DNA of 64,000 nt from an uncultured Flavobacteriales bacterium (lineage in GTDB: Bacteria; Bacteroidota; Bacteroidia; Flavobacteriales_G; Salibacteraceae): positions 310,001 through 374,000 of the forward strand of contig CALSRJ010000003.1 of assembly GCA_943788725.1 (NCBI GenBank), in the 5' to 3' direction. Under the pieces are notes generated by a model that saw only the letters and a list, made by a program, of their open reading frames with translations, was not told where the DNA came from and searched no databases. The translations under genes and the position numbers were made by a program. Below are positions 52,010 through 64,000 of this stretch, piece after piece. Each line of letters opens with the position of its first letter. Position 1 is the first letter of the stretch.

Positions 52010-53029
52010 TTAGCTATCTCCTTTTCCTTTATTTCCAAGGGTGCTACCGCCTAATGGACCCTTGTCCTTTGGCTTTGCGATGTTCTCGCGCATTTCAGTA
52101 TCTGCCATGATATTGCGATAGCGCTGATAATCCATAATGCCGAGGTTTCCACTTCTGAATGCTTCGGCGATGGCCTTTGGAATTTCGGCTTCGGCTTCGA
52201 TTACGCGAGCTTTAGCCTCCTGGGCTTTAGCTTTCATTTCTTGCTCAAGGGCTACCGCCATTGCGCGGCGTTCTTCGGCGCGTGCTTGGGCAATGTTCTT
52301 GTCGGCTTCTGCTTGGTCTATCTGAAGTTCTGCCCCGATGTTTTTCCCGATGTCAACGTCTGCGATGTCGATCGAAAGGATTTCAAATGCCGTTCCTGAA
52401 TCCAATCCACGTGCGAGCACAACCTTAGAAATGCTATCAGGGTTTTCAAGGACTTTCTTGTGGCTCTCGGCCGAACCAATAGAAGTAACGATACCTTCGC
52501 CCACACGGGCTAGAATCGTGTCTTCTCCGGCACCACCCACCAATTGGTTGATGTTGGCGCGCACGGTAACCCTTGCTTTAGCAATGAGCTGAATACCATC
52601 TTTGGCAACCGCTGTTACCGGAGGCGTATCGATCACTTTTGGATTCACGCTCATGGTCACCGCTTCAAACACATCACGTCCCGCGAGGTCGATCGCCGTT
52701 GCCATGTTGAAGTCGAGTGGGATGTTTGCCTTGTCAGCTGAAATAAGGGCGTTGACGACGTTCTGGACGTGTCCACCCGCCAGGAAGTGGGCTTCCATCT
52801 TGTCTGAACTGATTTCAATTCCTGCTTTTTTCGCATTGATCATCGCGTTTACGATGATGCTAGGTGGCACCTTTCTCCAACGCATGAAGATCAAGTCGAT
52901 CAGCGAAACTTTGGTAGTGGTTAAAACTGCTTGAAACCACAATCCAACAGGTACAAAATAGAGGAGTACCCAAAGTCCAACGATGGAGAGGATGACAACG
53001 AGAATCAATAGGCCTATTCCTTCTAACAT
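52010..53029 (-). CDS. floA: Flotillin-like protein FloA (SPFH, UPF0365)
   Basis: A 339-residue membrane protein. It has an N-terminal hydrophobic hairpin ([28 protein letters not shown]), an SPFH domain ([37 protein letters not shown]) and a long Ala/Glu-rich helix ([20 protein letters not shown]). FloA organises membrane microdomains. It starts 3 bp after the NfeD stop, and NfeD is its usual partner, so the two probably act together. Last of a four-gene operon. Confidence 0.93.
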
Positions 53030-53032
53030 GTG

Positions 53033-53491
53033 TTATTTCTTTATTACTGTGATCTTGGTTCCTTCAATGTTAGTGATTTCAACCGAGGAATGTGCGTCGA
53101 TGTACTCACCCTTTGAGCTCACCTCGTAGAAGTGTTCGTTGAACATCGCTTTTCCCATAGGATTCAATCGACTAATAGCCTCACCAACGTCACCCACAGC
53201 TAATCCTTCCGTGGGGCGATCCACTTTGGAGTCGATGCCTGATTTCAAACTAAGCTTTTGCCAAGTCTTTGCTCGAAAGGCCAGAAGGACTAGGCCAATC
53301 GATATGAGCCCGGTGGCGGCTAGGGTATAATTTCCGAAGGCAGGACTCACGTTATAGGCTAAAAAGAGGCAAGCCAACATCAATACGGCTCCTGCAATGC
53401 CAGGTATTCCTACCCCTGGAACCAGAAAGATTTCGATGAGCACCAGACCAATCGCAATGACCAATAAAAGGATGATGATGGTTGGGCTCAT
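53033..53491 (-). CDS. NfeD family membrane protein
   Basis: A 152-residue protein with three or four hydrophobic segments followed by a soluble OB-fold-like domain (GEAISRLNPMGKAMFNEHFYEV, then SKGEYIDAHSSVEITNIEG). This is the short NfeD form without the N-terminal ClpP-like protease. NfeD and flotillin genes are commonly paired and thought to act together in membrane organisation. It is 8 bp after the M48 gene and 3 bp before floA. Confidence 0.88.
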   Translation of the reverse strand: MSPTIIILLLVIAIGLVLIEIFLVPGVGIPGIAGAVLMLACLFLAYNVSPAFGNYTLAATGLISIGLVLLAFRAKTWQKLSLKSGIDSKVDRPTEGLAVGDVGEAISRLNPMGKAMFNEHFYEVSSKGEYIDAHSSVEITNIEGTKITVIKK

Positions 53492-53499
53492 GAGGCTTG

Positions 53500-54291
53500 T
53501 TATTTCTTGTAGTATTTCATCGCCTCTGGCATGAATTCTTCGAGGTCGGCAATCCGGGTCTCGTCGCTAGGATGCGTACTCAAAAATTCTGGTGGTTTCT
53601 GTCCGCCAAGTGCTGCCATGCGTTTCCAAAACTCCACGGCCTCCTGAGGGTTGTATCCTGCCATTGCCATGAAGATCAATCCCATTTTATCTGCCTCTGA
53701 TTCGTGGGTTCGCGAGAATTTGAGCATACCCAATTGGCTGCCGACGCCGAAAGATTGTAGCAGCAGTCCTTGTGCCAGTTCTGGTTGTTCTGACAAGGCA
53801 ACCGAAAGTCCAATACCACCTGCCTGAACGATGAGTCCTTGGCTCATGCGCTCGTTTCCGTGGCGTGCCACAGCATGGGCTATTTCGTGTCCCATAACAA
53901 CAGCGATGCCGCTTGCTGTTTTGGTAATGGGTAAGATGCCTGTGTAGAAGACTACTTTCCCACCAGGCATGCACCAAGCATTGACTGTTGGGTCATCTAC
54001 GACATTAAATTCCCACTCAAAGCCTTTTATGCGCTTCGATTGTCCTTTGTCGTGGAGGAATTTTTCCACTGACTTGGAAATCTTATCTCCAACTTCCCGA
54101 ACATTTCTAGTGTCTTGGTTTCCGTTGGCCAATGCTTTGTTTTCGGAAAGGAAAGTTTGGTATGCCGTAAGACTCATTGACATGAGTTGGCTTTCGGGAA
54201 GCATGTTCATTTGCCTTCTTCCAGTGATCGGAACCTTAGAGCAGGAGATCAAGAAGAGGGTTAAGCCTAGGATGGAAAAGAATCTTTTCAT
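53500..54291 (-). CDS. M48 family metalloprotease lipoprotein (LoiP/BepA-like)
   Basis: A 263-residue lipoprotein; start at ATG 54291, which overlaps the ClpS stop (ATGA). The signal MKRFFSILGLTLFLISC has its lipobox Cys at 17. The zinc motif is HEIAHAVARH (HExxH at 135-139) and ESEADKMGLIFMAMAGY contains the third ligand. It is likely a periplasmic endopeptidase handling misfolded outer-membrane proteins, by analogy with LoiP and BepA. Second gene of the clpS operon. Confidence 0.9.
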   Translation of the reverse strand: MKRFFSILGLTLFLISCSKVPITGRRQMNMLPESQLMSMSLTAYQTFLSENKALANGNQDTRNVREVGDKISKSVEKFLHDKGQSKRIKGFEWEFNVVDDPTVNAWCMPGGKVVFYTGILPITKTASGIAVVMGHEIAHAVARHGNERMSQGLIVQAGGIGLSVALSEQPELAQGLLLQSFGVGSQLGMLKFSRTHESEADKMGLIFMAMAGYNPQEAVEFWKRMAALGGQKPPEFLSTHPSDETRIADLEEFMPEAMKYYKK

Positions 54292-54566
54292 GGTTCGATC
54301 ACGGCAGCTAGTCCGCGTTGTTGAAGTTGCTTGCAAAGGGGGTGAAGTTTCTCTAGTTCGCCGTGTTTCACATCGCACTTACCCTTGGTATGCACGATCC
54401 AGGCTACTTGTTCGGCTTGTTCGGAGGAATGGCGGCAAATTTCAATGAGGGAATCGATCACGTGATCGAACGTATTCTCGTCGTCGTTGTAGAGCATCAA
54501 GGCTAACGGCTCGGCCGTTTCAATTTGTAGATCCGTGATCTCCTGAGTTTCGGTACTAAAGCGCAT
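54288..54566 (-). CDS. clpS: ATP-dependent Clp protease adaptor ClpS
   Basis: A 92-residue N-end rule adaptor that hands substrates to ClpA/ClpC. LMLYNDDENTFDHVIDSL is the N-degron pocket region and AWIVHTKGKCDVKHGELEKL the core after it. The track start at 54590 is a TTG and ATG 54587 is possible, but both lie in or at a TATTTTTG promoter element. ATG 54566 is 21 nt beyond it and gives a family-typical length. It heads an operon with M48, NfeD and FloA genes. Confidence 0.88.
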   Translation of the reverse strand: MRFSTETQEITDLQIETAEPLALMLYNDDENTFDHVIDSLIEICRHSSEQAEQVAWIVHTKGKCDVKHGELEKLHPLCKQLQQRGLAAVIEP

Positions 54567-54587
54567 CGCACTGGTTTTTGAGGACAT

Positions 54588-54595
54588 CAAAAATA
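54588..54595 (-). promoter_or_regulatory. Bacteroidota-type -7 element before clpS
   Basis: TATTTTTG on the minus strand is a full TAnnTTTG match ending 21 nt before ATG 54566. The track start TTG 54590 falls inside it, which argues for the downstream start. A 12-bp palindrome ATAAGCGCTTAT (54593-54604) overlaps it. Confidence 0.45.
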
Positions 54596-54612: not shown

Positions 54613-57600
54613 TTACAACTTCTCGGCCTGTGCTTGTGTTAATCCTTTGCTGCGAAGTTCTTGGGCTCGCTGATCTGCTTCGGCCTGTGAACTAAAAGAG
54701 CCGTAGTAATAAGAACTGCTTCCATCAGGATTGGAAACTTTGTCTACTCCTTCGCTGCTGAGCATCAAGATTTGTGAAGCTTGTTGCACGGGCACGTCAC
54801 CAGTGTAGTTGCCAAGAATGATACGGAAGCTTCCTATAGCGTTAGGTTGTGGAGCGGATTGCACCGGAGCAGGTGTTCCGCCAGTAGTACCCCTAATTTG
54901 TTCAACCCCTACACGCACTCCGTCACGATACGCTGTGACAAAGGCATCCGCTACGCCGAGGGCTCGGGCCTCGTCACGTGCTCGGGTTGCGTCGCTTTCA
55001 TTGTCGAACTTACCCGTGGTATAACGATAAAGTCCGCTGCTGAGGTTCTCTTGCAGCAGTGGAGTCATGTTGTAGATATCTGCGGAACCCACTGGTTTGG
55101 AATAAACGCCCACTTGAACCGTGTAGAAGCTTCCTGGGATGTTCTCAACAGCCTGAATTTCTAGCGGTCCTTGCTTGATGAATTGAGTTTGGATCGGTGC
55201 GCTTGGACTGGCACCTCCAATGTTTCCACCGCCACCACCACCCTGAGGGGCAATGGATGCAATTGATGCACCACCTTCTACCGCGCGAGCTTGTGTCATT
55301 GAAACGCGCTTTCCATTCAAGTAGGCGACCACGAAAGCATCCTGGTAACCGATAGACTGAATGCGCGACTTGGCCGCATCTGCCGCGTAGAAGTTGCTGA
55401 ACTCTCCAGCTGAATAGCGGATAAACCCTTGTGGAGTCGATTCGCCCACAATCGGCGAGATGCCTTTGAATGCATCCTGACGAATCGCATTTCTAAACGC
55501 ACCGATCTGTACTTTGTACAACAGTCCGCTTGGTAGGGGCGGATCAACCGGAATGGGGTTGGTTTCGCTGTAGGTGCTCGTTGAAGTTGTCTCTTCAATT
55601 TCAAAAATGGTCTGGGTCAGCACATCTTCCTGCACCTGAAGTCGACTGTTGTCCTGAGCAACGGGTGCGTTGAGTTTAAATGCTTCCCCTTGGTTCAGAG
55701 GATCTACTTCCTGGGTGTTTGTGTCGGTTTGATCGTTCTGAGAGAGGTCGATTTGTTCTGGAACAGGAGGAAGTGTGACATCCGCAACGGCAAGGTCATT
55801 CTTCGGCTCGTCATTGTAGAAGGCGAGGACGTTCATGTACGCCTCTTCCGGACGGGAAAGCAATTGGCGATTTGCTTCGTTCTCAATGTAGGTGGCTTCA
55901 CGTGTTAGCTGAGCAATCATGGTTGAGATGCTATCCGAACGCTCAAAATCTTTATAGGCCTGATTGGCCAAGGCTACCCGTGAATTTCCATTGGCATCTT
56001 CGATGGGTGCTGTTGCGGACCGCTCGAGCAACCCACTGCCTCGCTCGCTGAATTGGGCTTTCAACTGACGCAGCTTAGAAACCTCCCTTCGTATGGAGTC
56101 GGCGATGATCTTTTGGTCGTTGTAATCTAGGTATTCAATGGTGAAGCGAACGTCTTCTTTTTCGTTTGGATTCAAGGTGCGTTCAGCGACAGGCAATACT
56201 ACCTCTTGTCCGGGCAAAATGATAAAGTTCTGCTCGATGGTAGCTGTTTCAACCACTTGCATTTCTTCCGCTAGGTTTGAAGCAAGGTTTGCCTTTTGCT
56301 GCATGATCATGGCGTCGTCTTGCATCTTTTGAGCTTCAGCGATGGCAGGCAAGCGTACTTTCTTCTTTCGAATGGCCTCCGCCTCTTGCATCGCGGTACG
56401 CGCATTCAACGACATGTTATCTGCCTCAGCTTTCAAGTCAGTAGCGATGGCTGATTGCTTTTCCGAGGGAAGCTTTTGGCTGGCATCCATGGTGAGTACC
56501 TGGGTCTCAACTGCAGATAGTTTTTGTTCAGCTTCTGCATAGAAGACCGATTCCATTTGAACAATCTTCAGCTGCTTCTCCCTTGCGTCGAGTTCTTCTT
56601 GGATCTCTCGTTTCTTTTTCTTCTTTTTCGTTTCAGCGAGCTCCGTTTCTAGAGCATCCACTTGACCCTTTGCTTGAGCAGTAGCCTCTGCTTTAGTATT
56701 GGCTTCTGCAGCGTAGGTTTCAACCGCCTCGTTTTCTACAGGAATATACCCTTCAAAGCGCTCGCTTCCCTTAACCATTACATTAGATGGGGCCGATGGA
56801 CCGTTCACCGCTAGTTCAGGGTTCAAGGAGTCCAACGAAACTTGCACACGCTCTTTTTGAACATTCAAATCGATCATTTTGGCCGTGAGGGCCTGCTTTT
56901 GAGCTGGATCCTGTGTGTTGGCGATCCTTGCTTCTGTCTTTACCTTTTCGTTTTGGAGCGCAATCATCCAATTCTTGTTGAGCGTTTCCAGTTCGGCTTT
57001 TCTAAGGACTGGATTTGGATTCTCTAATATTTGCGTTTCGATTTGTTGGAAGGCGCTCGCATTGTAGTTGTCTACGAATTCATAGATCTGTTGTTGAAGC
57101 AATCCTTGCGACGCGTTGATGGCTTGTGCCATTTCCGCGTTGTCGATAGATGCATTGATCTCGCCGGCCTTATCTTCAATTTTACTTCGGAAAGCGGCTA
57201 TTTCTTCGGCGAGGCTCTCCAAATCATTGCGCTCTTCAATCGATTCTGAAGATTGAATCAATTCGCCAAAAAAGGCAAGTTCAGTAGCGAGTGCGTCAGA
57301 CCAGTCTTGATACACCTGTGCATGCTTTAATCGTTCTTCTGCGCTAGAGTTGGCCGTTAAAGGAGGTAAAGTATCTAGGTTGGCTTGAAAATCTTTGTTG
57401 ACAGAAACGACGCTCGGAGGGAGGCCTTCAGAAGCAGATGCGTCGAGGGGAGCTCCGAAGTCGACTGGATTTGTTGTGTTTGTGGTTTCTTGAGGCGCAT
57501 CGGCCGAATTTGCTCCTTGATTTGTGGAAGCAGTCGTGGCCGTGTTTGCTTCCGCTGATCCGTTCGGTTCAGATTCTTCGTTCACGGTTTCTTCGATACG

Positions 57601-60420
57601 ATCGGCTACTGCGTTTGATGCCGCTTGATCACTCAAATCTGCGATGTTCTGATAGCTCTGCATCGCCAGGTCTTCCTTCGTCGCTTTCTCTTCCTCAAGT
57701 GCTTTGATGGCGTCGTCGATTTCTACGAGCTTCTTGCCTTTGGTTTCTTGTCGTTTAGCTTCTTGCAGCGAATCGATGCGAACGCCGATGTTTTCTGCCC
57801 AGCTGTCATAAAGTTCGGCTTTTCTGCTCTCGGCAATGATCGGATCTTCGGCATTACCAGCGTTTTCTATCTCTCTGGTGAAGTACTGGTCAAGATCTCC
57901 GGAGACAATTTCTGGCTCCGATTCTTCCGCTTCAATGGCCTTGATTTGGTCATTGAGGTTATTCGATGACTCAGACCCAGTCGTTGAGGGTGTGGATACA
58001 TCGTCGCTCGGGTCTACGGAAGATTTGGGTTGTCCGTTGTTACCTGTTGCCGTTTCCCCTAACGTGCTTTCCAACGAAGCCGTCTCAGTGTCATTCTCAG
58101 GCGTGTTTGTTTTGCGACTATCGCCCAAACTCTCGTCCATAGCCAAGCCCGCTTCTTTAGGAGCCACAAAAGCGAGCAGTGCTGGGTCAGACTTTGCTTT
58201 TTCATTTAACTCTCCTTGTAGGCGATTTAAGGAACCGACATCTACCTTCAGCAGATTTTGATCTGCATAAGTATCTGCCAATTGTAGTAAGTCTTTGGTG
58301 GTGTTGTAATAGGCAAGCGCATTGTCTTTTTGCTGCACAAGAGCTACAAGCTCTTTGCTCGCTCGGTCAAGGGAAGCTTCTTTTTCAGGTTTTACAGATT
58401 CTGCCTCTGCAATTTGGGTTTCAAGTTCTTCCTTGATCAGGTCATCTTTGGTGTTCTCGATCTCTTGGCGGTAGTACGCCACTTCTTCATCAATGGCATC
58501 AACAGATCCTTCCAAATCTTCCACTTCGGCCAACTTGCTTTCATACGCTGAAATGGTTGGATCCAATCGTTTTTCAAAATTCTCCTCCAGTTGGTCCTCA
58601 AACTTCTCGAGCGACTTGAAGTTGTTTTTCGTAGCAGCAAGCTGGGTGTACTGTGCATTGAAAGCCGCATCGTCAATCCCAGAGCTTTTCAAAACGCCCA
58701 ACGTGCCTTCCATCTGTTCAAGCGCTACTTCTCGACGTTCTGCCTCCTTGCGATAACCGGAAGCAAGTTCAGCTGCAATAGCTGCTTCGGCTACCTCCAT
58801 GGTCTCTGACCCGCTTTTCTTTTGCTGGGCCACATCGTACAAGGTGGATGCCTTTGCATTCAAGGTATTGGTTTCTTCCTCCAATGTGCGGATGGCACGT
58901 TCAGCCAGAGCGAGCCTTTCTTCGCGCGGTGTGTCGTCCATTTTGGTTCCTTCGCTGGTGCTCTTGGATCCGTCATCGATGATTTCAAGCGTACTCTCGA
59001 TGTCTTCTTCGGTCGTGTTTACAGATAGACTGGCTTGTCGCTTTAGGATTTCCGCCGTCAATAACTGCTCATCTTCGATTGGATCGTCGAAGTGGTTGAT
59101 GATTTGCAATTGTTCTTGCCCATCTACCATGACCAATTTCATTTCTTGCCTGAACTGTTTCAAGCCCTTTTCACGAGGTACCTCTACAATTCCGCTGTGT
59201 ATGGCATCGCTTTCTTCTGCTTCTACGAGAAACTTGTATTTACCACTCCCCTTCAAATCCAATAGGTAATTTCCGAACTGGCGATCGGCCTCGTACACCC
59301 CTATCGTTTTGTTTTGAACCATGTCTTCTACCGTAATCTTGGCTTTTTTGGATCCCTCGTATTCGAACACCCCTTTGATCAACGTCAGGTCAAGAGGGAT
59401 GCGCTCCATTCCGATGCGGTAGACCGTTACTTGCTTGTTCGTGGTTTCGCGGTTACTGGCAAACCAAGCCGTAGTCTCTTCCAAGTCTGAAATGAACATA
59501 AAGTCATCCCATGGAGTGTTGATTGCAAACTCCATGTTGATAGGCGGTGACCACGTTCCATCTCCTCGGCGGGTGCTTTTGAAGATGTCATACCCTCCCA
59601 TGCTGTTGTGTCCCTTAGATGCGAAGTAGAGGGTATTTCCTTCTGGATGAATGAAGGGGTAGTCCTCATCAAGGACCGTGTTGATGGTTGCGTCCAATTT
59701 TTCGGGCGTGGTCCATCCTGTTCCAAGCTTTTGGATGAAGTAGAGGTCTTTTCCGGTTGCGTTCTTATCGGAAAAGGAGGCGAAGTAGATCAGGTCAGCG
59801 TCTTGCTGAAAGTACATGAGCAATTTAGCGTCTCTTTTCTTATCCTCCTCTGACATGAAGTCTTCTGGCTTGACGATGATCTTCCCACCAAAATCTGTCA
59901 GGTCATAGTTGCGATAGAAGTCGCTCCGAGGGAGGACACTTCGCTGCACGACCGAAATGTCGGTGAAGCTGGATACCAAGTCCTTCCCTTGTTTGCACTG
60001 CTCAATGTGGTGATCTACGAGGGCCGACTCAGGTTCTTTTTTTGATGAGAGGGGTTTGTACTTCTCGTACTGCTCAATTGCCTTGTCGAACCGATAATTG
60101 AGATGAAGTCCTAAACCGTAATAGAAATAAGCGAGGGGCGGCACATCCTGTTGTTCCGTGGCGAACTTCAGGTACTTGATGGGCTCTTCCTTGTCTTGGA
60201 TGGTGAAGAGTTGACACACACCAAATCGATAATTGTATTCTGCACTTTGAAGATTAATGCTCAGAAGGGTAGAGTACAACTTCGACGCTTCCTCATAGTC
60301 TTCCTGCTGAAATAGTTCGAGCGCTTGCGCGTTCAATTCTTCCTCAGACTCTTGCGCATGCAAGGAAGTCAGAGAAAATAGGGTTAGCAGCAAGACTGCG
60401 ATGTATGGTCGGATATTCAA
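54613..60420 (-). CDS. Giant envelope protein: TPR, PD40 propeller, coiled coil, three SPOR domains
   Basis: A 1935-residue exported protein (signal MNIRPYIAVLLLTLFSLTSLHAQ; start is TTG 60420, no nearby ATG). Residues 25-150 are TPR-like. Residues 170-340 hold PD40/WD40-like blades (HPEGNTLYFASKGHNSMGGY). Residues about 400-1560 are long acidic and coiled-coil segments, with a lysine run (KKKKKK) near 1260. Three SPOR domains end the protein: LLYKVQIGAFR near 1631, SFYTVQVGVYS near 1762 and SFRIILGNYTG near 1862, each followed by a YYxGxF-type segment. The TPR-PD40 start resembles PorE-type proteins of the type IX secretion and gliding system, but these end in OmpA; here three SPOR domains could bind glycan-denuded peptidoglycan. 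Function inferred as envelope scaffold. Confidence 0.82.
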   Translation of the reverse strand: MNIRPYIAVLLLTLFSLTSLHAQESEEELNAQALELFQQEDYEEASKLYSTLLSINLQSAEYNYRFGVCQLFTIQDKEEPIKYLKFATEQQDVPPLAYFYYGLGLHLNYRFDKAIEQYEKYKPLSSKKEPESALVDHHIEQCKQGKDLVSSFTDISVVQRSVLPRSDFYRNYDLTDFGGKIIVKPEDFMSEEDKKRDAKLLMYFQQDADLIYFASFSDKNATGKDLYFIQKLGTGWTTPEKLDATINTVLDEDYPFIHPEGNTLYFASKGHNSMGGYDIFKSTRRGDGTWSPPINMEFAINTPWDDFMFISDLEETTAWFASNRETTNKQVTVYRIGMERIPLDLTLIKGVFEYEGSKKAKITVEDMVQNKTIGVYEADRQFGNYLLDLKGSGKYKFLVEAEESDAIHSGIVEVPREKGLKQFRQEMKLVMVDGQEQLQIINHFDDPIEDEQLLTAEILKRQASLSVNTTEEDIESTLEIIDDGSKSTSEGTKMDDTPREERLALAERAIRTLEEETNTLNAKASTLYDVAQQKKSGSETMEVAEAAIAAELASGYRKEAERREVALEQMEGTLGVLKSSGIDDAAFNAQYTQLAATKNNFKSLEKFEDQLEENFEKRLDPTISAYESKLAEVEDLEGSVDAIDEEVAYYRQEIENTKDDLIKEELETQIAEAESVKPEKEASLDRASKELVALVQQKDNALAYYNTTKDLLQLADTYADQNLLKVDVGSLNRLQGELNEKAKSDPALLAFVAPKEAGLAMDESLGDSRKTNTPENDTETASLESTLGETATGNNGQPKSSVDPSDDVSTPSTTGSESSNNLNDQIKAIEAEESEPEIVSGDLDQYFTREIENAGNAEDPIIAESRKAELYDSWAENIGVRIDSLQEAKRQETKGKKLVEIDDAIKALEEEKATKEDLAMQSYQNIADLSDQAASNAVADRIEETVNEESEPNGSAEANTATTASTNQGANSADAPQETTNTTNPVDFGAPLDASASEGLPPSVVSVNKDFQANLDTLPPLTANSSAEERLKHAQVYQDWSDALATELAFFGELIQSSESIEERNDLESLAEEIAAFRSKIEDKAGEINASIDNAEMAQAINASQGLLQQQIYEFVDNYNASAFQQIETQILENPNPVLRKAELETLNKNWMIALQNEKVKTEARIANTQDPAQKQALTAKMIDLNVQKERVQVSLDSLNPELAVNGPSAPSNVMVKGSERFEGYIPVENEAVETYAAEANTKAEATAQAKGQVDALETELAETKKKKKKREIQEELDAREKQLKIVQMESVFYAEAEQKLSAVETQVLTMDASQKLPSEKQSAIATDLKAEADNMSLNARTAMQEAEAIRKKKVRLPAIAEAQKMQDDAMIMQQKANLASNLAEEMQVVETATIEQNFIILPGQEVVLPVAERTLNPNEKEDVRFTIEYLDYNDQKIIADSIRREVSKLRQLKAQFSERGSGLLERSATAPIEDANGNSRVALANQAYKDFERSDSISTMIAQLTREATYIENEANRQLLSRPEEAYMNVLAFYNDEPKNDLAVADVTLPPVPEQIDLSQNDQTDTNTQEVDPLNQGEAFKLNAPVAQDNSRLQVQEDVLTQTIFEIEETTSTSTYSETNPIPVDPPLPSGLLYKVQIGAFRNAIRQDAFKGISPIVGESTPQGFIRYSAGEFSNFYAADAAKSRIQSIGYQDAFVVAYLNGKRVSMTQARAVEGGASIASIAPQGGGGGGNIGGASPSAPIQTQFIKQGPLEIQAVENIPGSFYTVQVGVYSKPVGSADIYNMTPLLQENLSSGLYRYTTGKFDNESDATRARDEARALGVADAFVTAYRDGVRVGVEQIRGTTGGTPAPVQSAPQPNAIGSFRIILGNYTGDVPVQQASQILMLSSEGVDKVSNPDGSSSYYYGSFSSQAEADQRAQELRSKGLTQAQAEKL

Positions 60421-60534: not shown

Positions 60535-61194
60535 TTAATCGTCTTCAGCGGCCTGCTTGATCAGGTTCTTCAGGGAGATGTTTGCGCGGTTTTCTTCACG
60601 TCTGAAAAGACGCTCAATATTCTTCTGATGCGTTATCAGCACTAGGATTGCGACGAACATAGAAAACACAATCAGACTGGGAACTGTGGTCTGATAGATC
60701 AACACTATGATGAACGGAAAGCTCAACGCAGCGGTCATGCTTCCAAGCGAAACGAAGCGTGTAATCGCAAAAACAACGATAAATATGCCCAAAGCGATCA
60801 ATGCACCTTGATGATGTACTGCGAGCATGAGGCCTAAAAGTGTAGCAATTCCTTTACCTCCTCGAAATCCTGCAAAAACAGGGAAAATATGCCCGATAAC
60901 GGCAGCAATGCCCAAGGCCAATTGATAATTGACAAAGGCAGCATCGGTGATGGGTTCTTCCGCAAAAAATACGACCAATTTCACGGCAGCAAACCCTTTG
61001 AGGGCGTCGATGAGCAGTACAGGTATGCCTGCCTTCTTACCCAGTACCCGGAAAGTATTCGTCGCTCCAGCGTTACCACTTCCGTACTCCCTAACATCGG
61101 TGTCATAGAAGATTTTCCCCACCCATACGGCCGTTGGAATAGAACCTAGAAAGTAGGCTAGAAGCAAAGAAAGGATGGTGGGTATCGTTACCAT
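60535..61194 (-). CDS. plsY: Acyl-phosphate:glycerol-3-phosphate acyltransferase
   Basis: A 219-residue inner-membrane enzyme with about five or six helices. GSGNAGATNTFRVLGKKAGI and FRGGKGIATLLG are the two phosphate-binding PlsY motifs; a third Gly-rich segment follows. It acylates glycerol-3-phosphate with acyl-phosphate to start phospholipid synthesis. It starts 38 bp after the large unknown gene and is followed by a terminator-like hairpin. Confidence 0.95.
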   Translation of the reverse strand: MVTIPTILSLLLAYFLGSIPTAVWVGKIFYDTDVREYGSGNAGATNTFRVLGKKAGIPVLLIDALKGFAAVKLVVFFAEEPITDAAFVNYQLALGIAAVIGHIFPVFAGFRGGKGIATLLGLMLAVHHQGALIALGIFIVVFAITRFVSLGSMTAALSFPFIIVLIYQTTVPSLIVFSMFVAILVLITHQKNIERLFRREENRANISLKNLIKQAAEDD

Positions 61195-61232: not shown

Positions 61233-64000
61233 TTAGAATTTGCTTAGGAAGTCGTCTTTGCGTCGTTTGCTGCCGAGCATGAAACTATAAGGTGATTGTC
61301 CTTTCTCGACTTTCACCTTTCTTTTATCTGCCTTCAGGTCTGTGATTGATGTGTTGAATTCATCCAAGCTTGAATAGGCCTGCATGATGTTGCGAGAATA
61401 CTTGAAAAACCACCAAGTATCCTTGTCGGCCTCCAGGTAAATGTTGATCTCGGGAATTCGCCCAACCACTACTTCTACCTTGCCGGTCACCTTAACGTTG
61501 ACTTGGCGCTTGCCAATGTTTCCAATGCCAATTTTGCCGGTTGATTGGTAGGAGTCGGTTTCTGCGTTCCACTTCAAGTGTACTTCAGTCAAGAAGAAGT
61601 TTTTCTCGAGTTCGGACGGGAACCTCCTAAATTCACCGGTGAGGGTGATGGTAGATATTAACTTATCCGCATCATCCGTTCCAATCAATTCGCGCAAGCC
61701 TTTTTGGTAGGTGTCGCGCTCAAAATCTGATGGTTCGCCCAGGGCGTTTTCGGCCATGATCTTACCCATATCGTCGATCAGCTTATTCTCAAAAAAGAAA
61801 TCAAGCAAAATCATTATGTCCAAGTCAACTTTGTCTTCTTGTAGGTCATGGGAAATGTTTCCAACCGTCATCAGGTCGAGTTGGCCTGGATTGAGCCCAA
61901 AGCCCATTTTGCCTTCTGAGTAGACTTTACAGCCTTCTGATTGTAAGCTCATATACTGACCTGGCAGACTTGCTTGCGTGAGTTTATTGATGTTCGAAAT
62001 CCGATATTCTTTCACGGATTCATTGTAATGAATGTATCCCGATGCAGGAAGCAACTCGGGGTGGTCTTCCTTTAGTTTCTTTGACAAGAAAGAAGAATAG
62101 ATCGCTCCCGTATCTTGGTTCAAGACAATGGACGATGTAAGGATGTCGCCATCTGCATTGCTAATCGTTTTGTCAACCGGGATGTACAGATCGTCTGGGT
62201 CAACTACCGACTTAAATTTGAACCAACTCAGAGGAATTGCCGAACTGCACTGATGCCGCAGTCTGGAATATCCATTGAATGTGAGTGATTTGTTGGCGGC
62301 CTCCAATCTTACAGCTCCCCGGTACTCGAAATAAGGACTCAAGGTAAACCCTCGGGTACTGTCGATGTCTCCCTTTGCATAAGTCTGGAAACTACTGTCT
62401 ACGCCTACCGAATTGAAACGGATTTGTTGACGGTCCCCGTTTAAGTCCTTGTAGTTGTATACGCCTGTTCCGAAGTAGTCTCTTCGCGCATAGATGTCGA
62501 CGGTTGCGCTGTCGATCCGATGGTACTTGGTAATGGCATTCGCTACAACCTTGCAGTTGGTCAAGGTCTTCATTTTCGCCTTTTTCAAGATGGTAATCAG
62601 TCCGCTGTCAGGATAGACTAATGCATCTGCTACTTTAATGAATTCAATTTCCTTAGCGTCGATGATTGAATTCTTGATGTCATACCGTGCTGCTGGAGAG
62701 TAGAATTCCAATGAGTCTTGGTCAGGGTGAGTGGAAATAAACCGAGAACCTTCAAATTGCATGGCTCCAGCACTCGTAGCTTTCGAGGTTTTTCCACCAG
62801 ACAGTTCGATGGCTTCTTGGTCCATGTACCAAGTAAATCGATCCATGTAGGCGATGTACTGGTTCGCTGGAAATTCCATTTTTGACGTTCCACCATTTGA
62901 CACGAAGTCGCCTTTTCTCAAAGCGAAATCGACATCGGCGGTAACATCATTTGTCTTGAAGAAGAAACCTTCAAAGGCAGACACATCCGACTTGAGTCGG
63001 AAGTCGGCGGTATCACTGTGGAATCCGCTGAAGTTGAAATCAAATTTATTCGATTCCAATTCTGCTTTGTCAAACTCGAACAGGCCATTTCCAGTCAAGT
63101 CTTCTGGAGTCAAGTCGAGTCCCCCCGTCAATTCACTACCATCGTACATGATGAACGGAGATTTGGTCGACTCGCAATGCAAGAGGTCGTCGTAAGGTTG
63201 CCAGCGCTGCTTGATGTCCTTGCCCGTGGTGGGTGGGTACTCCACCGGTGACATTTGTTCTTCAATGACAAAGGATGTTGCTACGGTCTGCATTTCTTCA
63301 GGAAGGAAAAGGAAGTCTTTCGAACGCGTCGTACTCGCCAGGTATTTCAGTTTCCCCGAACCTTTTAGTCCGTCGTGACTCAGTTTGATGGTGTCATTGA
63401 ATTTGCCTTTTCCACGATATAGTTCGTAGCCGCCTGGCGGGGTGTTCCGGATGAAGCCTAGGGCGTAATCTTCTTGTACGGTCAAGGTCTCTTCAAACTC
63501 CGGGAAAATATCAGCACTGGCGAAGCGTCCTGGGAATGCGACACGTTCACTCCTGAAATTATCGAGACTGTCGAATATAAAGGGGTCGAGTTCAAAGTAG
63601 AAGTTCTCCCGGTTGTACGACTTACCCTGAATTCCAGACCGATCGTAGTAGGTGTATGAAAGGTCGTGACTGGTAAAGATGGGATACTCATCGAATTGCT
63701 GGATACCCGATTTATTTCCGGGGTCGTCAATTTCGAGGGTGCCATTTACATCTTCAATTACGGTGGTCACACGCGTGAGTTGCTCTCTTCCGGTCGCCGT
63801 TTTTTCACCCGTCGCAACGATCAATCGAGTGGAGTCGACGTTGGGCATTTCAAGCTTAAAGGAGTCGTAAGAGAATTTGAAGTTGCTTCCAAAGAATTCG
63901 AGGCGACCCGCCTTGATCACACCAGAGAAGTCGAAGTCGCGGTTCTTACTCATCGTAATGGTTCCATTCTGAGGAAATAAGACCACTTGGTGAGAATCGG
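61233..64000 (-). CDS. Large unknown beta-rich protein (5' partial)
   Basis: The frame is open to the right edge (codons before the track's GTG read DSHQV), so the start lies outside. The 917-residue fragment is strand-rich with recurring patterns: FDFSGVIKAGRLEFFGSNFKF, GLFEFDKAELESNKFDF and GYIHYNESVKEYRI. The C-terminus is basic (GSKRRKDDFLSKF). I recognise no enzyme motif. The repeated shape could fit a beta-helix or AsmA-like filament on the outer face of the envelope; I cannot confirm this. It precedes plsY on the same strand by 38 bp. Confidence 0.6.
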   Translation of the reverse strand, partial: DSHQVVLFPQNGTITMSKNRDFDFSGVIKAGRLEFFGSNFKFSYDSFKLEMPNVDSTRLIVATGEKTATGREQLTRVTTVIEDVNGTLEIDDPGNKSGIQQFDEYPIFTSHDLSYTYYDRSGIQGKSYNRENFYFELDPFIFDSLDNFRSERVAFPGRFASADIFPEFEETLTVQEDYALGFIRNTPPGGYELYRGKGKFNDTIKLSHDGLKGSGKLKYLASTTRSKDFLFLPEEMQTVATSFVIEEQMSPVEYPPTTGKDIKQRWQPYDDLLHCESTKSPFIMYDGSELTGGLDLTPEDLTGNGLFEFDKAELESNKFDFNFSGFHSDTADFRLKSDVSAFEGFFFKTNDVTADVDFALRKGDFVSNGGTSKMEFPANQYIAYMDRFTWYMDQEAIELSGGKTSKATSAGAMQFEGSRFISTHPDQDSLEFYSPAARYDIKNSIIDAKEIEFIKVADALVYPDSGLITILKKAKMKTLTNCKVVANAITKYHRIDSATVDIYARRDYFGTGVYNYKDLNGDRQQIRFNSVGVDSSFQTYAKGDIDSTRGFTLSPYFEYRGAVRLEAANKSLTFNGYSRLRHQCSSAIPLSWFKFKSVVDPDDLYIPVDKTISNADGDILTSSIVLNQDTGAIYSSFLSKKLKEDHPELLPASGYIHYNESVKEYRISNINKLTQASLPGQYMSLQSEGCKVYSEGKMGFGLNPGQLDLMTVGNISHDLQEDKVDLDIMILLDFFFENKLIDDMGKIMAENALGEPSDFERDTYQKGLRELIGTDDADKLISTITLTGEFRRFPSELEKNFFLTEVHLKWNAETDSYQSTGKIGIGNIGKRQVNVKVTGKVEVVVGRIPEINIYLEADKDTWWFFKYSRNIMQAYSSLDEFNTSITDLKADKRKVKVEKGQSPYSFMLGSKRRKDDFLSKF

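Follow-up and report, generated by a model that had tools for sequence, protein, structure and literature searches.

The window analyzed here, a 64,000-nucleotide stretch of DNA, encodes a 1,935-residue protein whose N-terminal region is reminiscent of PorE and whose C terminus is predicted to bind the cell wall through SPOR domains, raising the question of which envelope process this combination serves. The coupling of outer membrane, wall, and division in Bacteroidota without a recognizable TolB is poorly explained; the sole observation made here in support of this view is the near absence of TolB_N from the order, with one weak match among 33 genomes. A large, single-copy, conserved, and putatively wall-binding scaffold without a named family is a concrete candidate for such TolB-less coupling.

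Reading frame and domain architecture

The gene is a single intact open reading frame with exact coordinates, strand, and length (Table 1). From the N to the C terminus, the protein comprises a signal peptide, a TPR domain, PD40 blades, a β-sandwich resembling a carboxypeptidase-regulatory-like domain (CRD), a helix-and-linker stretch of ~1,100 residues, and the series SPOR1-SPOR2-SPOR3. The preliminary description had read the locus as one 1935-residue protein, a reading borne out by the intact frame and by orthologues that keep the same domain join. An artefact of sequencing or assembly, in which two genes have been mis-joined, can be dismissed with near certainty: the same join is seen in a full-length orthologue of 90% identity and in many independent assemblies, and domain-wise dN/dS (ω) against that orthologue is 0.006-0.08 in the measurable regions, a rough estimate with several dS values above 1. 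Constraint is strongest in the head and in the SPOR1/2 regions. The expectation that homologues ending in OmpA would expose a mis-joined frame fails, as full-length orthologues keep the join. A mis-joined frame is ruled out by dozens of single-frame orthologues of ~1,480-3,100 residues with the same domain order, a conservation that exceeds chance. The opposite-strand frame at 54781-55164 and other long frames antisense to the gene show no sign of being genes.

Table 1. Features of the gene and its conserved neighbors, in window coordinates
Feature	Residues	Position	Strand	Basis
Whole gene, TTG start	1,935 in total	54613..60420	-	Full-length orthologue with 90% identity
Sec (type I) signal peptide (...SLTSLHA/QE), without lipobox	~1-22	60355..60420	-	Sequence
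TPR domain	24-150	59971..60351	-	Pfam TPR_2/TPR_16 (weak); AlphaFold helices; Foldseek
PD40 β-propeller blades	200-340	59401..59823	-	Orthologue matches; NCBIfam PorE model; AlphaFold strands
CRD-like β-sandwich	341-443	59092..59400	-	Orthologue CarbopepD_reg matches; AlphaFold strands
First helical region	500-760	58141..58923	-	AlphaFold helices of ≤62 residues, short turns between
Variable middle, helix-rich stretches and S/T/D/N-rich linkers	761-1235	56716..58140	-	Composition
Second helical region	1236-1540	55801..56715	-	AlphaFold, pLDDT mostly >90; helices of ≤46 residues, short turns
Linker, largely disordered	1541-1629	55534..55800	-	AlphaFold pLDDT <50 over much of the linker
SPOR1; conserved Q1638, A1641, F1642, R1668	1630-1709	55294..55533	-	Pfam; invariant in 53 sequences; AlphaFold
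SPOR2; conserved Q1769, nearly invariant R1799	1762-1840	54901..55137	-	Family profile, 98 bits; AlphaFold
SPOR3; SPOR fold lacking the glycan-contact Gln (here Ile)	1864-1935	54616..54831	-	hhalign; AlphaFold pLDDT ~95
PlsY (glycerol-3-phosphate acyltransferase), upstream		60535..61194	-	Pfam 4.5e-58; immediately upstream in 28/40 fetched loci
Protein X, C-terminal part, continuing past the window end		61233..63998	-	Next to or near the gene in 32/40 fetched loci
ClpS, downstream		54288..54590	-	Pfam 4.6e-17; adjacent in 34/40 fetched loci
M48 lipoprotease (BepA/LoiP-like), NfeD, FloA		52010..54378	-	Rest of the conserved run

No true lipobox is found in the protein or among 52 scanned orthologues. 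The pattern itself matched in three of the 52, each time upstream of the real signal peptide, because over-long start calls add stretches before it. The protein is real, encoded once, and secreted.

In the head, the TPR domain is weak by sequence in Pfam and clear by fold, with Foldseek aligning it to TPR structures at a target TM of ~0.8 (the top two matches of the head, of low TM, were disregarded). TPR families are present in many of the 23 scanned orthologues, and TPR proteins were also matched in a PDB sequence search. The PD40 signal of the protein alone is weak (Pfam, 16.7 bits, E 0.007); PD40 is matched in 19 of the 23 orthologues, at best with 3e-10. The NCBIfam model for PorE, NF052230, aligns with residues 206-401 (5e-22), as does the model for CHU_0125 of Cytophaga hutchinsonii with the PD40 region (2e-21), both being confined to residues 204-401. 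The CRD is the weakest part of the head, resting on CarbopepD_reg_2 in 3/23 orthologues and on model strands. The AlphaFold model of residues 21-760 (mean pLDDT 87) contains the TPR head, propeller strands, the β-sandwich, and helices with short turns. The PorE-like combination of TPR and PD40 that had been proposed for this locus therefore holds, by fold for TPR and by the orthologue matches and PorE model for PD40.

Such a head could belong to an accessory component of the machinery for type IX secretion (T9SS) or gliding, the PorE-like portion joining the T9SS and the SPOR tail, rather than OmpA, anchoring it to the wall. The genome does encode ~100 proteins with type IX sorting domains, which together with the resemblance to PorE favors this role. 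The score against NF052230 is, however, 77.9 bits for a cut-off of 600 bits, the genome has separate PorE-like OmpA genes that are better PorE candidates (476 bits, C3:475355-477244), and no T9SS gene is among the identified immediate neighbors. We regard a T9SS role as unlikely.

The middle of the protein does not bear out the coiled coil of ~1100 residues, potentially a very long rod, that had been envisaged. AlphaFold models covered residues 21-760 and 1236-1935, in which no helix exceeds 62 residues; residues 761-1235 were judged from composition and periodicity. The latter residues form the least conserved large region, with 38-47% identity to the orthologues at L078 and L079. S/T/D/N-rich breaks occur near residues 751-850 and 951-1000 by composition, and AlphaFold places a disordered linker around 1560-1600. 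Seven-residue (3.5-residue) periodicity is weak in most windows of the middle, as compared with z ~3 for the Lpp and GCN4 controls. The short helices of the modeled regions, the low-complexity linkers, and the mostly absent heptad signal argue against an uninterrupted rod of ~1,100 residues; a single rod is not supported, and the models suggest helical segments with short turns and disordered linkers.

In the tail, Pfam recognizes two SPOR stretches (family total of 35.3 bits for a cut-off of 21), and SPOR is found in 22/23 orthologues. The third copy is related to SPOR1 by profile-profile comparison (hhalign, 98.7%, E 4e-16); in the genome of the window, its score against the family profile of SPOR1/2 is only 7.9 bits. 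The AlphaFold model of residues 1236-1935 (mean pLDDT 85) folds into helices, disordered linkers, and three SPOR domains. A PDB sequence search weakly matched the SPOR3 region to the SPOR domain of CwlC (E 0.03). With Foldseek, the tail model had no significant PDB match (best E 0.13), an outcome probably due to the dominance of long helices in a multi-domain model. Three SPOR domains are present in 34 of 53 sequences and two in 19, one of the latter being cut by a contig end. The three tandem SPOR domains of the preliminary description are thus present as folds, with the qualification that SPOR3 lacks the glutamine and the copy number is two or three. Its placement of a SPOR tail where OmpA is usual also stands, as SPOR exceeds the Pfam cut-off and OmpA has no match in the protein or the 23 scanned orthologues. 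Domain searches and structure prediction together matched both SPOR (Pfam, AlphaFold) and PD40 (orthologue profiles).

SPOR domains recognize denuded glycan, which is enriched at septa, and not intact wall; in RlpA, Q270 contacts the glycan, and a role of Q270 and R309 in binding denuded glycan has been shown (PMC6895207). Mapped onto RlpA through the shared motifs V-Q-x-G-A-F and R-Y-x-x-G, as we read them, the Q270 equivalent occurs in every SPOR1 and SPOR2 of the 53 sequences; the R309 equivalent never varies in SPOR1 and is kept in 51/53 copies of SPOR2. SPOR3 has an ω of 0.05 against the orthologue at L077 (rough, several dS being >1) and therefore appears to be kept under purifying selection despite the lost glutamine.

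Distribution and gene neighborhood

Full-length single-frame orthologues occur in the genus, the family, and the order, as well as in many families of the Bacteroidia. Of the order-level genomes, 31/33 carry the tandem SPOR region in one copy each; in the two exceptions the head is present and contigs end inside the gene. The region is found in 109/247 relatives. In 297 phylum-wide draws, the region is matched over most of its length in only two genomes and in two pieces in one further genome. Brumimicrobium salinarum and many uncultured Flavobacteriales are among the named matches, but the titles of some metagenome-bin records seem to be wrong. The orthologues at L124, L140, and L148 are by far the longest (~3,030-3,130 residues) and owe much of their additional length to the middle. 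Two class-level relatives, L073 (5972-9523; 1,183 residues) and L074 (5881-10620; 1,579 residues), have syntenic genes adjoining ClpS-NfeD-FloA that encode the same head and a single degenerate SPOR-like end; the tail therefore varies within the family. The protein is uncharacterized and spread over many Bacteroidia families. Literature searches limited to open-licence papers returned no description of a TPR/PD40 head with a SPOR tail, and no named family was found that joins a TPR/PD40/CRD-like head to such a tail: the domains are known and newly combined.

The gene lies in a conserved run, X-PlsY-[gene]-ClpS-M48-NfeD-FloA, which in its fuller form reads DoxX-TpiA-PrmA-X-PlsY-[gene]-ClpS-M48-NfeD-FloA. 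Many relatives share the downstream part from ClpS to FloA (52010-54590). Protein X (~1,495 residues; full copy at L077:1914-6398) has a signal peptide, is strongly conserved at 47% mean column identity, and matches no Pfam or NCBIfam family. Its co-occurrence with the gene was considered as a sign of functional coupling; X is present in 213/247 relatives as compared with the 109/247 for tandem SPOR, which indicates synteny and no specific co-inheritance.

A putative scaffold on the septal wall

The features that bear on function are the predicted Sec signal without a lipid anchor, the TPR/PD40/CRD-like head, the helices and linkers, and the modeled SPOR folds, two of which keep the residues predicted to grip peptide-free glycan. 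We give a probability of roughly 0.5 to the reading that the protein is a secreted, soluble periplasmic scaffold that sits on denuded, mainly septal, peptidoglycan through SPOR1 and SPOR2 while its head binds a partner. SPOR1 and SPOR2 would dock the protein on denuded peptidoglycan, and because septal amidases produce this glycan, the protein would concentrate at division sites. SPOR3 may have a structural or accessory role. Like other TPR/propeller heads, the head would engage a partner, either periplasmic or at the outer membrane, and the helical middle and its linkers would span the gap flexibly, not as a rigid rod. The protein could in this way tie an envelope complex, perhaps the machinery of outer-membrane constriction or assembly, to the dividing wall.

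An Amidase_3 match and a SPOR match lie in one 446-residue frame elsewhere in the genome (G000:C3:409106-410254), so the type of enzyme that makes denuded glycan is present. TolB_N is absent from the 1,935-residue protein and has no match in its genome at E 0.001; with TolB_N essentially absent from the order, another propeller protein could serve division-linked outer-membrane work. Together, the amidase and the lack of a TolB_N match make a division role plausible, although they are not proof of it. Against a tether, no outer-membrane anchor is visible, such that tethering would depend on the putative head interaction. Against a division role, the conserved neighbors PlsY, ClpS, PrmA, and TpiA are housekeeping genes that do not point to division.

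The protein might alternatively be a general spacer or stabilizer between the outer membrane and the wall along the whole cell, as a giant Pal or Lpp would be, and not restricted to the septum. Its size, conservation, single copy per genome, and predicted wall-binding tail would suit this function, as would the alignment of its PD40 region with CHU_0125, a Pal homologue (PMC5891637). A spacer nonetheless seems doubtful, as the protein has no lipid anchor and the glycan that SPOR recognizes is septum-enriched rather than that of the intact wall.

The septal scaffold can also be cast in a more specific form, in which the protein does the job of TolB-Pal in Bacteroidia that lack TolB, its propeller head coupling outer-membrane invagination to the septal wall through SPOR domains that read denuded glycan. 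We consider this form speculative and improbable.

Comparison with known envelope proteins

PorE (PG1058), a periplasmic protein of type IX secretion, consists of a TPR domain, a β-propeller (PD40), a CRD, and a peptidoglycan-binding C terminus (PMC5053529). Similar to PorE, the 1,935-residue protein has the N-terminal order TPR, propeller, CRD, and it is predicted to be exported to the periplasm and to bind the wall through its C terminus. It differs in ending in SPOR rather than OmpA_C, having no lipoprotein signal, and containing ~1,100 additional helical and linker residues. With no OmpA, no lipobox, and a PorE model score below the cut-off, the protein is not PorE. PorE-type heads are therefore found combined with a different wall-binding module, making a "PorE-like head" separable from a "type IX component".

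CHU_0125 is a Pal-like envelope integrity protein, named "outer membrane integrity protein" in NCBIfam (PMC5891637). Whereas CHU_0125 has an OmpA/Pal end, the protein described here does not, and it scores 76 bits against the CHU_0125 model for a cut-off of 620 bits. With FtsN, DamX, DedD, and RlpA it shares the SPOR fold and, in SPOR1 and SPOR2, the glycan-contact Gln and Arg; unlike these proteins, it has two or three SPOR domains in tandem, no visible membrane anchor, a TPR/propeller head, and a very large size. As in TolB-Pal, a periplasmic propeller would work with a wall-binding module (PMC7391070); here, in contrast, propeller and wall module are carried on one chain, with SPOR in place of the OmpA-like domain.
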